Assembly (NCBI RefSeq): GCF_001427385.1
Contig: NZ_LMGJ01000012.1
Coordinates: forward strand, 124,433 to 188,432
Direction of reading: 5' to 3'
From: Mesorhizobium sp. Root157
GTDB lineage: Bacteria > Pseudomonadota > Alphaproteobacteria > Rhizobiales > Rhizobiaceae
DNA: 64,000 nucleotides
Shown one piece after another: positions 4,376-18,297 of the stretch. The translations under genes and the position numbers were made by a program. Numbering within the stretch: the first letter of the stretch is position 1; each line of letters opens with the position of its first letter. The notes beneath the pieces were generated by a model. The model was not told where the DNA came from. It was given only the letters and a program-made list of their open reading frames with translations, and ran no database searches.

Positions 4376-5541
4376 CAGACGAATGGCCGCCCGATCTGGT
4401 ACTTTGCCGGGATCAGGCGCTTCAGGTAATCGTAGGCGGGTGCGGCAAGCTGGTGGACGTCGGGCTGCATGAAGTCGTCCGGCATGTGGCGGGTCTTGCC
4501 GGCGACGTGGTCGAGCGGCACCTTTTTCAGCACGGTCTGGCGACCGTCGAATTGCAGCGCGACCGAGCCGCCGCCTTCGCCCGCGACCATTGCCGCGAAT
4601 GCGCCGGCCTTGAAGGCTTCTTCGCTGTCTACCGGATTGATGGCCCCGACATAGCCGCGCGGCATGTAGCCGAGCGCATCGACGCGGGCGCGTTTGCCGG
4701 GCAGGTGCGTTGCCAGCGCCTGTTCGAGCGCGGCGGTGAGGTCGCTGCCGGAAAGCTTGACGTTACCATGCGCGTCGCGCTCCAGCCTGTCGGGCGGCAC
4801 GAGGCTTTCGACAAGCGCCTTGCCGTCTGCCGTGGAAACGCCTTCCGAAACCGCGACGATGCAGCGCCGGTGACGGTCGAGCGTGGCGCGCACGTCGTCG
4901 ACGAAGCGGGACACCTCGAAGGCGCGCTCCGGCACATAGACAAGGTGCGGGCCGCTGTCTTCGTCCGCGCGCCACGCTGCCGCAGCGGCGGTGAGGAAGC
5001 CGGCGTGGCGGCCCATGACGATGCCGACATAGATGCCGGGGAGCGCCCGGAAATCGAGATCGACCGACAGGAAGGCGCCGGCGACGAACTCTGCCGCCGA
5101 GATGAAGCCCGGCGTGTGGTCGTTTTCCTCGAGATCGTTGTCGATGGTCTTGGGCGCATGTACGAAGGCCATGCCGCCGCCGGCTGCATCGGTCAGGATC
5201 TGCTGGGTGCCGGCGGTGTCGTTGCCGCCGATATAGATGAAGGCATCGGCGCCGGCCTTGCGCAACCCTTTGAGGATCACCTCGCAATAGGCCGCGTCCG
5301 GCTTGTCGCGGGTCGAGCCGAGTGCGGCGGAGGGGGTTCGCCCGATGAGGCGCAACTGGGCCTCGGGCATGTCGCTCAGATCGACATAATCGCCGTCGCG
5401 AATGCCGCGCACGCCGTGGCGCGAGCCGAGCACATGCGCGCCGGGGTGCCGCTTGCGGATTTCGAGCACGGCGCCCACCAGGGTCTGGTTGATGACGGCG
5501 GTGGGCCCACCGCCTTGTGCGATGACGAATGTCTCGGACAT
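4375..5541 (-). CDS. 6-phosphofructokinase, diphosphate-type
   Basis: 388-residue phosphofructokinase-family enzyme that phosphorylates fructose 6-phosphate, or runs the reverse reaction, in the cytoplasm. The N-terminal nucleotide or diphosphate loop reads AQGGGPTAVIN. GGND at 105-108 carries Asp in the position that is Gly in ATP-dependent enzymes, and PKTIDNDL at 130-137 carries the Lys typical of PPi-dependent forms. MGRHAGFL is the conserved sugar-binding segment. I therefore infer PPi dependence. It is the first gene of a two-gene operon with the overlapping MBL hydrolase. Rhizobia mainly use the Entner-Doudoroff route, so a reversible PPi enzyme may serve gluconeogenesis or the pentose cycle. 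Confidence 0.85.
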   Translation of the reverse strand: MSETFVIAQGGGPTAVINQTLVGAVLEIRKRHPGAHVLGSRHGVRGIRDGDYVDLSDMPEAQLRLIGRTPSAALGSTRDKPDAAYCEVILKGLRKAGADAFIYIGGNDTAGTQQILTDAAGGGMAFVHAPKTIDNDLEENDHTPGFISAAEFVAGAFLSVDLDFRALPGIYVGIVMGRHAGFLTAAAAAWRADEDSGPHLVYVPERAFEVSRFVDDVRATLDRHRRCIVAVSEGVSTADGKALVESLVPPDRLERDAHGNVKLSGSDLTAALEQALATHLPGKRARVDALGYMPRGYVGAINPVDSEEAFKAGAFAAMVAGEGGGSVALQFDGRQTVLKKVPLDHVAGKTRHMPDDFMQPDVHQLAAPAYDYLKRLIPAKYQIGRPFV

Positions 5542-6588: not shown

Positions 6589-7212
6589 ATGTCTTTCGAA
6601 GCCTGGCTCGCCTTCACCGCCGCCTCGATGGTCCTTCTGGTCATTCCCGGCCCGACCATCCTGCTTGTCGTTTCCTATGCGCTCGGCCAGGGTTGGCGTA
6701 CCGCCTTGCCGATGTCGGTCGGCGTGGCACTGGGCGACTTCACCGCCATGACGCTGTCGATGCTGGGGATCGGCGCGCTTTTGGCTGCATCGGCGAGCGT
6801 ATTCACGGTGCTGAAGGTGATTGGCGCTGCCTATCTTGTCTATCTCGGCATCAAGCTGTTCCGCGCCGGTGGAACGCTCAACGCCGAACCGCGAACCGAT
6901 GCCGTCTCGTCAGCAAGGATGATGGCCCACGCTTGGCTGGTCACGGCGCTGAACCCCAAGAGCATCACCTTTTTCGTGGCGTTCCTGCCGCAGTTCATCG
7001 ACCGCCACACGGATTTCGTGACACAGATGATGATTTTCGAAAGCACGTTCCTGGCGCTGGCCTTCGCCAATGCCTTTGGCTACGCGCTGGTCGCTTCAAG
7101 GGCGCGCAGCCTGGTGAGCAATCCGAGGGCGATCCGCATCTTCAACCGTGCCGGCGGTTCGCTTCTCATCGGGGCCGGCGTCGCCACCATGGCCGTTCGC
7201 TCGGGTTCTTGA
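6589..7212 (+). CDS. LysE/RhtB family amino-acid exporter
   Basis: 207-residue inner-membrane protein of the LysE/RhtB family with five to six hydrophobic segments. The family-typical N-terminus includes IPGPTILLVVSYALGQG, and the central KVIGAAYLVYLGIK segment is also diagnostic. Such proteins export amino acids or related metabolites by proton exchange. The ATG at 6589 follows GGAGAG. The substrate cannot be told from the sequence, and no LysG-type regulator lies beside it. Confidence 0.85.
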   Translation: MSFEAWLAFTAASMVLLVIPGPTILLVVSYALGQGWRTALPMSVGVALGDFTAMTLSMLGIGALLAASASVFTVLKVIGAAYLVYLGIKLFRAGGTLNAEPRTDAVSSARMMAHAWLVTALNPKSITFFVAFLPQFIDRHTDFVTQMMIFESTFLALAFANAFGYALVASRARSLVSNPRAIRIFNRAGGSLLIGAGVATMAVRSGS

Positions 7213-7222
7213 GGCGAGGTCG

Positions 7223-7588
7223 TCAGCCGACCAGCTTGGCGATCTTCGAGACTTCGAAGAAGTCGAACAGGATTGCCAGGGCAACGCCGCCACTGGTCAA
7301 CAGCAGCCCGACCATGAAAATGCGGTTGGCCCGCTCGAAGCGCTGCTTCATCAGGCATTGATGCTTGAGAAGGTCGGAGAGCGCCTTGATCTGAAGGGCG
7401 ATGCCGACAAGGATCGGCAGCAGCGCGAAGCCGTCCTCGGGCTGCCACGGTATGGGGTTGGCCGCCCAATGAGTAACGAAGCCGAGCGAGAAAGCCAGCA
7501 CGATGCCGACCACGGTGAGCGTGCCATTGCGGAAAATCGTCTCGACCAGTTCGTCGGGTTTTTCAGGCTGCATTTGCATACTCAACAT
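7223..7588 (-). CDS. small membrane protein of unknown function
   Basis: 121-residue protein, not recognised. Three hydrophobic segments lie at about residues 24-42, 52-70 and 90-112, separated by charged loops, so an inner-membrane location is likely. Three in-frame Met codons near the start (7588, 7579, 7573) have no strong ribosome binding site, so the exact start is uncertain. It converges on the LysE gene with a 10-base gap and is divergent from the xylose operon. Confidence 0.6.
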   Translation of the reverse strand: MLSMQMQPEKPDELVETIFRNGTLTVVGIVLAFSLGFVTHWAANPIPWQPEDGFALLPILVGIALQIKALSDLLKHQCLMKQRFERANRIFMVGLLLTSGGVALAILFDFFEVSKIAKLVG

Positions 7589-13741: not shown

Positions 13742-13766
13742 AGTTCGTTTGGACATGGCTAGAGGC

Positions 13767-13899
13767 TTGCTCCCCCTCCACCGCCTGCGCCGGTTCCCCT
13801 CCCTCGTAGACGGGGGAGGGTCCGCGGTCGCGCCGTTGGCACGATCCAGATATTCCCATGCGAAGCGGGGGAGGTAGGCCGAAGGGCCGGAGGGAGCAA
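13767..13899. repeat. GC-rich palindromic intergenic repeat
   Basis: About 133 bases between the BKACE and carnitine dehydrogenase genes. The outer arms TTGCTCCCCCTCC (13767-13779) and GGAGGGAGCAA (13889-13899) are inverted. An inner hairpin has CCCTCCC at 13797-13803 and GGGAGGG at 13814-13820, and a gggggaggta motif follows. It resembles the short mosaic palindromes common between rhizobial genes. A related piece sits inside the CoA ligase gene. Confidence 0.7.
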
Positions 13900-13924
13900 T
13901 ATCGGGGGAAGTGGAGGTATTTCA

Positions 13925-16161: not shown

Positions 16162-18297
16162 ATGCATCGTCTTGACCGGCTGCTTCGCCCGAAATCCATC
16201 GCCGTCATCGGCGGCGGGGCGTTCGGCACCAATGTCGTCGAGCAATGCCTGAAGATGAATTACGCAGGCGCGATCTGGCCGGTGCATCCAAGCCGGCCGG
16301 ACGTCCGTGGCGTGCCCGCTTTCAAATCGGTTGCCGATCTGCCCGGCGCGCCCGATGCGGCGTTTGTGGCCGTCAATCGCAATCTCACCATCGACATTAT
16401 CGGCCAGCTTTCCAGGCTGGGCGCAGGCGGCGCGATCTGCTTTGCCGCCGGCTTTCGCGAGACCGGCAACGACGATGCCGACGGCGAGCGCTTGCAGCAG
16501 GAACTGGTGGCTGCGGCTGGCGCAATGCCGATCATCGGCCCGAACTGCTATGGCCTCATCAACTACGCCGATGGCGCGCTGTTGTGGCCCGACCAGCACG
16601 GCGGCAAGCGGCTGGAGCAAGGCGAGCGCGGCGTGGCGATCATCACCCAATCGTCAAACATCGCCTGCAACCTCACCATGCAGCAGCGCGGCCTGCCGGT
16701 CGCCTTCCTGATGACGGCCGGCAACCAGGCGCAGACCGGCCTGTCCGAAATGGCGCTGGGGTTGATCGAGGACGAACGCGTCACCGCCCTTGGCCTGCAC
16801 ATCGAGGGCTTCGATTCCGTCGCCGGCTTCGAGCGCCTTGCCGCCCGCGCGCGTGAACTGAAAAAGCCGATCGTCGCCATGAAGGTCGGCCGCTCGGAAC
16901 AAGCGCGCGCCGCCACGATTTCGCACACAGCCTCGCTGGCAGGGTCTGACGCAGGCTCGGATGCCTTCCTCAAGCGGCTGGGTATCGCGCGCGTGCATTC
17001 GATCCCGTCCTTCCTCGAAACGTTGAAGCTGCTGCACACGGTCGGTCCGCTGCCGGGAAGACGGCTGTCGTCGATGAGTTGTTCGGGCGGCGAAGCGTCG
17101 GTGATGGCCGACACCGCCGAGGGGCGCGGGGTCGGTTTCCCGGCGCTTGCCAGCGGCCACAAATCCCGCGTGAAGGAAGCGCTCGGCCCGCTGGTGGCGG
17201 TCGCCAATCCGCTCGACTACAACACCTTCATCTGGAACGACGAGCCGGCCATGACGGCGGCATTCGGCGCGTTCGTGTCCGGCAGTTTCGACCTCAACAT
17301 GCTGGTGCTGGACTTCCCGCGCAACGACCGCTGCTCGGATGCCGACTGGTGGACGGCGGTGAGCGCCTTCGAAGCTGCCTTGAAGGCAAATGATGCGCGC
17401 GGCGCCATTGTCGCTTCCATGCTGGAGAATTTGCCTGAAGCGCATGCGATGGACCTGATGAAGCGGGGCGTCGTGCCGCTTCACGGCATCGTCGAGGCGT
17501 TCGATGCGGCTGAAGCGGCGGCGTTTATCGGTGCGGCGTGGAAGAGACCGACCCCACTGGCGGTAGGGTCGGTGCGAAGTGACGGGATGGAGCCTCTCTC
17601 CACAACACCCCCACCCGCGCCTATGGCGCGACCTCCCCGCAAGGGGGAGGTAGGGGCCAGCGCCACGCTCGATGAGGCCGAAGCCAAGGCGCTGTTGCGC
17701 GAGGCGGGCCTTGCCGTGCCCAAGGGCGAGCGTGTCGCCAATGCGGATGAAGCGGTTGCTGTGGCGCGGGAACTTGGCTTTCCGGTTGCGCTGAAGGCGC
17801 TGGGCGTCGCTCACAAGTCAGAAGCTGGCGCGGTTAAACTCAACTTGCACAGCGAAGGGGCTGTGCGTTCTGCTGCAACGGCGCTCCTGCCGCTCGGCTC
17901 CGGCCTCTATGTCGAACGCATGGTGCAGGGTGGGGTGGCGGAACTGATCGTCGGCTTCACCCGCGATCCGGTGTTCGGCCCGACCATGACGCTGGGCAGC
18001 GGCGGCGTGCTGGTGGAATTGCTGCAAGACAGCGCCATGCTGCTTTTGCCGGCTTCGCCAGGCGAGATCGAGGTGGCGTTGCGGTCGCTGAAGCTGTTTC
18101 CGTTGCTCGACGGCTATCGCGGTCGCCCGAAGGCCGATATCGCGGTCGCCGTCGAGGCGGTTGCGGCCATTGCCGCCTTCGTTTCCGAGCGGGCGGACGG
18201 TATCGAGGAACTCGACATCAATCCGCTCATTGTCTGCAGGCAAGGCGAGGGTGTGTGGATCGCCGACGCGCTGCTGGTTTCAAGGGACGCATCATGA
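16162..18297 (+). CDS. two-domain CoA ligase (ADP-forming acetyl-CoA synthetase type)
   Basis: 711-residue acid-CoA ligase of the NDP-forming family. An N-terminal CoA-binding Rossmann domain (RPKSIAVIGGG) is followed by succinyl-CoA-synthetase-like domains with the phosphorylated His255 in TISHTASLAGS. A C-terminal ATP-grasp domain includes PVALKALGVAHKSEAGAVKL and ELDINPL. Between them, about residues 461-501 form a Pro/Arg-rich linker encoded by a palindromic repeat inserted in frame. The ATG at 16162 is three bases after the preceding stop; a GTG at 16156 overlapping that stop is possible. The context suggests activation of gamma-butyrobetaine, crotonobetaine or carnitine. Confidence 0.82.
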   Translation: MHRLDRLLRPKSIAVIGGGAFGTNVVEQCLKMNYAGAIWPVHPSRPDVRGVPAFKSVADLPGAPDAAFVAVNRNLTIDIIGQLSRLGAGGAICFAAGFRETGNDDADGERLQQELVAAAGAMPIIGPNCYGLINYADGALLWPDQHGGKRLEQGERGVAIITQSSNIACNLTMQQRGLPVAFLMTAGNQAQTGLSEMALGLIEDERVTALGLHIEGFDSVAGFERLAARARELKKPIVAMKVGRSEQARAATISHTASLAGSDAGSDAFLKRLGIARVHSIPSFLETLKLLHTVGPLPGRRLSSMSCSGGEASVMADTAEGRGVGFPALASGHKSRVKEALGPLVAVANPLDYNTFIWNDEPAMTAAFGAFVSGSFDLNMLVLDFPRNDRCSDADWWTAVSAFEAALKANDARGAIVASMLENLPEAHAMDLMKRGVVPLHGIVEAFDAAEAAAFIGAAWKRPTPLAVGSVRSDGMEPLSTTPPPAPMARPPRKGEVGASATLDEAEAKALLREAGLAVPKGERVANADEAVAVARELGFPVALKALGVAHKSEAGAVKLNLHSEGAVRSAATALLPLGSGLYVERMVQGGVAELIVGFTRDPVFGPTMTLGSGGVLVELLQDSAMLLLPASPGEIEVALRSLKLFPLLDGYRGRPKADIAVAVEAVAAIAAFVSERADGIEELDINPLIVCRQGEGVWIADALLVSRDAS
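17547..17651. repeat. palindromic repeat inside the CoA ligase ORF
   Basis: Two perfect hairpins lie in coding sequence: ACCGACCC/GGGTCGGT (17547-17554 with 17566-17573) and ACCTCCCC/GGGGAGGT (17631-17638 with 17644-17651). The second matches the style and the gggggaggta motif of the intergenic element at 13767-13899. The reading frame stays open and the segment encodes the low-complexity linker between the succinyl-CoA-synthetase-like and ATP-grasp parts. Confidence 0.75.

Follow-up and report, generated by a model that had tools for sequence, protein, structure and literature searches.

The window analysed here, a stretch of 64,000 nucleotides from Mesorhizobium sp. Root157, contains an acyl-CoA synthetase gene whose linker harbours, in frame, one half of a palindromic repeat that probably entered the coding sequence by insertion; several families of such repeats would multiply in these genomes, and the same tolerant loops of proteins would have been invaded repeatedly. 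The coordinates of the features are collected in Table 1.

Table 1. Features of the window, numbered from its first nucleotide.
Feature	Coordinates	Strand	Basis
Intergenic palindromic element, other family	13765..13905	+	Relatives at C12:235468-235596 and C1:229368-229479
Acyl-CoA synthetase (NDP-forming type), host gene of the insert	16162..18297	+	ORF, translation, Pfam, solved homologues
43-codon Pro/Arg-rich linker, alpha/beta fusion joint, predicted disordered	17542..17670	+	Orthologue alignment, AlphaFold2
First hairpin ACCGACCC/GGGTCGGT, perfect 8-bp stem 17547-17554/17566-17573	17547..17573	+	Within the linker, outside the repeat
Half of a palindromic repeat, in frame, read as TPPPAPMARPPRKGEVG	~17606..17656	+	Alignment with cobN and other copies; divergence
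Inner hairpin CGCGCC/GGCGCG, 6-bp stem 17616-17621/17625-17630	17616..17630	+	Stem sequence varies among copies, pairing retained
Outer hairpin ACCTCCCC/GGGGAGGT, perfect 8-bp stem 17631-17638/17644-17651	17631..17651	+	Folding, copy alignment

The Ligase Gene and Its Linker

The product of the ligase gene counts 711 residues and comprises CoA-binding, succinyl-CoA-ligase-like and ATP-grasp parts (Pfam: CoA_binding_2, residues 11-133; Succ_CoA_lig, 157-291; ATP-grasp_5, 501-704). In the solved homologue 4xyl, alpha and beta are found on two distinct chains, A and B, which makes the linker the joint of an alpha/beta fusion. A first, sequence-only reading of this DNA had placed a Pro/Arg-rich peptide of about 40 residues between the synthetase-like and the ATP-grasp parts, and both Pfam and 4xyl agree with this location, the length being 43 residues. 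The AlphaFold2 model, built from an alignment of 33 sequences, had a mean pLDDT of 83.9, with values below 50 at residues 471-498, in the linker, which is predicted to be disordered.

The repeat proper, at about 17606-17656, matched 11 non-homologous places and consists of the 6-bp and then the 8-bp hairpin, both following ACCCCCACCC. The two perfect 8-bp hairpins reported in the sequence-only reading do exist; however, the first of them is absent from the ligase of the sister Root552 (L088), 89% identical, and is thus not part of the shared repeat. Full copies of the repeat, as seen in M. ephedrae and in the cobN inserts, contain a pair of hairpins per half, and their two halves face each other in inverted orientation across a variable centre; the copy in the ligase of the window is one half only. 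Folded as single-stranded DNA, the 126-base segment gave a z-score of −2.95, and none of 200 shuffles folded equally well. Moreover, inner stems of at least 5 bp were found in 62 of 154 copies, versus 2.1 in shuffles, with 15 different stem sequences: pairing that is kept while the sequence of the stem changes is general among the copies. No Rfam family matched the window at gathering scores, and a plasmid search with the linker DNA returned two weak ones.

Copies of the Repeat in the Same Genome

When the segment 17540-17665 was searched by blastn against the whole genome, further copies were indeed present: the closest was at C34:14806-14854 (90% over 49 bp, E 3e-12), and C1:248456-248481 was also matched (E 4e-4). 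The pattern CTCCCC-N(2-10)-GGGGAG occurs at 14 places of the genome, versus 2 for the same pattern read backwards. We examined 12 element places, namely the ligase and 11 others, which account for the 13 other pattern places as well as for the 13765 element. At three of the 12 the element lies in frame within a genuine gene. Besides the ligase, these are C34:14806, where the copy is inside cobN (CobN-Mg_chel, E 8e-148), oriented opposite to that of the ligase and with a different inner stem, and C36:24914, where a repeat of another kind is inside polA, recognised by its DNA_pol_A domain and both exonuclease domains (5'-3' and 3'-5'). For the other nine places, C12:235468 among them, no gene placement was established. 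The proposal that the repeat had entered the ligase in frame without breaking it is supported: neither of the outcomes named in the sequence-only reading as refuting it was observed, as the segment has other copies in the genome and the linker sequence is not conserved among orthologues.

The partner of the ligase copy is not the one first suggested. The intergenic element at 13767-13899 does have the motif GGGGGAGGTAG and the general hairpin layout in common with the ligase insert, but blastn across the whole genome matched it neither with 17540-17665 (E up to 0.01) nor with 17600-17660 (E up to 10); for this reason, and since its own best relatives are elsewhere (Table 1), we assign it to another family. 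The actual partner copy sits in cobN.

In-Gene and Intergenic Copies in Other Genomes

One linker peptide was searched in 12 genomes and had matches in 9. Ten frames, picked from 19 long ones, were submitted to Pfam, and domains were found in eight of them: glyQ, glyS, a UvrD-type helicase, a hydantoinase/oxoprolinase, cobN, an Lhr-type helicase and two xdhC; the other two (L172, L181) had no Pfam family. The glyQ loop is 5-10 residues long in 23 of 26 genomes and 40-50 in three. The three glyQ inserts differ in sequence, but their assignment to different types finds no support in the coarse clustering, which groups all three together.

In M. ephedrae, glyS is a single frame of 938 codons with three inserts at three places. 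A region of 400 kb of this genome, chosen partly because it contains glyQ and glyS, held 28 element loci, of which four are certainly genic (one in glyQ, three in glyS) and most were not placed in genes. One further candidate in-frame copy lies at C3:158957, its frame being judged without Pfam. The codon-score filters flagged as in frame only 2 of 39 fragments, or 2 of the 28 merged loci; the glyQ copy, like two of the three in glyS, was recognised from the ORFs.

Two groups of candidates were set aside. Five hutH rows in Rhizobium plasmids had appeared as in-gene copies, and in the three examined the repeat proved to be intergenic, reaching a few bases into the end of the gene; the other two rows, H37 and H45, and single rows naming a sugar ABC protein (H50) and phnK (H52) are candidates. 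Eight weak matches in core Mesorhizobium were judged spurious or intergenic, on unusual codon-position GC or short flanks and without Pfam.

Some further observations were made in these genomes. The first loop of glyS in P. manganicus (L201) is extended to a gap of 111 nt by an in-frame palindromic repeat of quite different sequence, of the CCTCATCCTGAGG type, which is common in related bacteria. In M. sediminum (L268, L269), polA was matched as two pieces in different frames. The spacer directly 3' of the ligase carries palindromic repeats whose kinds differ among genomes of the Aminobacter group (L065, L066, L067, L071, L074, L097, at ~7100-7300), and the corresponding spacer of L078 has none. 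Relatives of the repeat in the ligase linker of M. ephedrae are spread over 182 plasmid records, among them those of Rhizobium and Sinorhizobium (H65-H124), at no fewer than 950 places.

Filling of Orthologous Loops

The linker is not conserved among orthologous ligases, as the idea of an insert had implied: in core Mesorhizobium it measures about 23-25 residues and is free of repeats, and in 28 of 108 orthologues it is filled by repeats of several kinds. The repeat-bearing linkers are 39-75 residues long in 25 of these 28 rows and 24-32 in the remaining three. Linkers of 54 (L092) and 42 (L096) residues have no known repeat inside, so long linkers arise in other ways too.

These counts come from a test that compared every loop with a further 1.20 Mb of DNA, from which the polA and cobN loci had been removed and in which ligase, glyQ and glyS were masked. 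The strict rule asked for a match at four or more non-homologous places with E up to 1e-3, and the loose rule for one place at the same E; the controls were segments of the same genes that lay 120 nt upstream or downstream and were no shorter than the loop. Three rows were excluded, L054 (taken for the L135 contig, with which it agrees in length and organism group), L134 (own copy) and L094, whose linker region has a frameshift. Under the strict rule, matches were found for 28/108 ligase, 16/24 cobN, 5/26 polA and 3/26 glyQ loops, 52/184 in total, compared with 0/184 upstream controls (none in any of the four genes) and 1/184 downstream controls (glyQ 1/26; ligase 0/108, cobN 0/24, polA 0/26). 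The sole matching control, from LHD-90, contains a second element, located at the C-terminus of glyQ. Under the loose rule, the matching loops were 32 for ligase, 16 for cobN, 8 for polA and 3 for glyQ, and controls matched as well, both upstream (ligase 6/108, cobN 3/24, polA 1/26, glyQ 0/26) and downstream (7/108, 2/24, 2/26 and 2/26, respectively). The glyQ, polA and cobN genomes were chosen by us, largely among those whose ligase locus was in hand and many of which bear repeats, and 3/26, 5/26 and 16/24 are thus not the rates of a random sample; in addition, the plain loops of glyQ, with their 15-30 nt, can hardly give good matches. In Aliihoeflea sp. 2WW (L094, ~5430-5480), the frame changes between the two ligase halves, in the linker region, and this change may be either genuine or a sequencing error.

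The ligase linker is a recurrent hotspot for repeats. On a tree of 56 ligases built without the linker, the repeat labels assigned by eye require 22 changes (compared with a minimum of 7 and a mean of 25.8 after shuffling) and the automatic coarse clusters 18, and a tree of 24 cobN rows without the loop requires 12 changes of coarse cluster, both being quick trees without bootstrap. Some sister species hold different clusters at the same site, as observed for the ligases of M. composti and the MAG L056 (support 100) and of LHD-90 and M. ephedrae (99), and for cobN of M. camelthorni and M. alhagi (98). The cobN loop is filled in the genome of the window and empty in Root552. Of the marks of a MITE, terminal inverted repeats and a target site duplication, the inverted arms are clear, and the divergence between filled and empty loops of related species is too great for a duplication to show. 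Empty and filled alleles were not seen within one species, and for this reason the insertion itself is something that we infer.

We suggest that the flexible linker between what were once separate alpha and beta subunits of the acyl-CoA synthetase would have received, in frame, a copy of a palindromic repeat. Several repeat families would multiply, presumably by transposition, in the genomes of Mesorhizobium, Aminobacter and Pseudaminobacter, largely between genes. Most insertions into genes would be lost, probably through purifying selection, and the survivors would be those in frame, free of stops and located in loops or interdomain linkers; the same tolerant loops, that is the ligase linker, the CobN loop, the PolA linker and the GlyRS loops, would consequently be invaded repeatedly, and one family could replace another at the same loop. 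The insert would be translated and would be tolerated rather than beneficial. Frames without stops do not appear to be a special property of these elements: 13 intergenic copies had on average 3.6 of six frames stop-free, versus 2.0 after shuffling; positions drawn at random from the same DNA gave 3.1, so the excess is weak and reading through a copy is easy.

Constancy of the Repeats and Variation of the Peptide

Between the window and Root552, the changes in the ligase linker at the first, second and third codon positions were 6/9/11, versus 51/29/210 in the flanks (p = 4e-4). The encoded linker peptide has no codon-position bias, and the peptide itself is not conserved. The repeat, instead, differed at 2/51 sites, compared with 24/78 in the rest of the linker and 210/668 third positions. 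In the ligases of four Aminobacter strains and of a MAG that groups with them, 8/96 arm sites were variable versus 14/34 in the centre and 122/200 flanking third positions, and, without choosing limits, 11/50 third positions of the linker were variable; the inner stem of the element is identical in all five. Three Aminobacter cobN genes gave 0/96 variable sites in the arms and 18/37 in the centre, with arm limits set after seeing the variable sites, whereas a count free of that choice gave 11/51 third positions in the loop versus 86/200 in the flank. By eye, the arms of orthologous intergenic copies beside the ligase (L065, L097) are similarly constant, and the constancy may therefore belong to the repeat rather than to the gene.

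Plain toleration does not predict repeats that stay nearly constant within coding sequence, and this counts against the explanation given above. The constancy of the arms could be due to selection on RNA or DNA, to one arm serving to correct the other, or to exchange with other copies. Tentatively, conserved loops might be long-lived docking sites at which repeat families replace one another, with the arms maintained as nucleic acid by selection, self-templated correction or exchange while the peptide drifts; if this were true, a mobile element would impose on coding DNA a constraint of a non-coding kind.

The constancy also bears on whether the repeats are retained for a function at the loop, either as an RNA or DNA hairpin (acting in mRNA stability, translation pausing or protein binding) or as a useful spacer peptide. 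The few variable arm sites of the five ligases and the few variable third positions of the three cobN loops would fit such a role, as would the pairing kept in stems of changed sequence, but many orthologues do without the repeat, families are swapped between sister species, the peptide is not conserved and the intergenic copies appear similarly constant in their arms; we thus regard a function as unlikely. It seems similarly improbable that each loop was invaded only once, long ago, the resident repeat being later overwritten in place by recombination with other copies in the genome, through shared hairpin arms, to give a mosaic of families. The nearly identical fill point in different lineages is in agreement with this history, and arms nearly constant around a variable centre are what homogenisation would produce, yet plain short loops at the same sites in related genomes would require many losses, and all five ligases of the Aminobacter clade have the same inner stem, although stems vary among copies. 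Finally, a chance likeness of GC-rich, Pro/Ala-rich linkers to GC-rich repeats, for which one could cite the controls that match under the loose rule and the many polA linkers rich in Ala/Pro without repeats, is hardly conceivable given the strict-rule counts and best matches of about 190 bases with E down to 3e-44, and for the 52 strict-rule loops it is refuted.

Repeated in-frame invasion of tolerant loops, the explanation that we prefer, would mean that palindromes code for protein in Mesorhizobium, Aminobacter and Pseudaminobacter, even in essential enzymes such as both subunits of glycyl-tRNA synthetase, and it would explain the odd Pro/Gly-rich linkers of these proteins. One loop that in many species is either empty or holds different repeats represents a natural replicated experiment, and makes it possible to test how the repeats spread, how they are filtered, whether they alter the protein and why their arms remain constant inside genes.

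Comparison with Known Repeat Systems

The resemblance to the Rickettsia palindromic elements (RPE) proposed in the sequence-only reading is apt as regards the way of entering genes. According to the part of the source available to us, RPE are of about 150 bp, belong to several families and lie in frame in unrelated metabolic genes (PMC10969869). Compared by description, the repeats reported here are likewise palindromic, of similar size, of several families and inserted in frame in unrelated protein-coding genes, but they presumably have other sequences, their hosts have genomes of 4-7 Mb and are not obligate intracellular bacteria, and the same loop holds different families in sister species. 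The in-frame insertion by which RPE are recognised was found in ligase, cobN and polA of the same genome, and in glyQ, glyS, the UvrD-type, hydantoinase, Lhr-type and xdhC genes of other genomes.

RIME and AB/C palindromes are abundant in rhizobial genomes and, in the accessible text, are described as intergenic (PMC2573895). The repeats studied here share with them this abundance as palindromes of rhizobial genomes and differ, on a comparison by description and not with the published RIME sequence, in being also in frame within genes.

The full copies of M. ephedrae and the cobN inserts, with two palindromic halves inverted around a spacer, recall REPINs, the REP doublets mobilised by RAYT. 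Unlike in that system, the RAYT family PF01797 (Y1_Tnp) was not found in 16 of 19 genomes, that of the window included, while the same search was positive in 5 of 14 control genomes, and RAYT as a general mobiliser was therefore rejected.

E. litoralis and S. alaskensis are free-living alphaproteobacteria. Together with oryzae, they are among the hosts named for the in-gene GTAG and CGTC REPs, hairpin repeats of coding regions, often inverted dimers, of 20-40 bp, for which the available portion of the article gives one shared site, recB of two Xanthomonas (Di Nocera 2013, PMC3733652). As far as that description goes, our inserts are similar in being hairpin repeats inside coding regions and often inverted dimers, and different in being mostly of 100-200 bp and in recurring at orthologous loops across many genomes. 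The name Mesorhizobium is absent from the text of PMC3733652, and no report of such repeats within Mesorhizobium genes was present in the literature searched, which covers subscription journals thinly. In-gene palindromic repeats outside Rickettsia are already published (PMC3733652), and what is added here is the layout of the repeat and the repeated use of orthologous loops.
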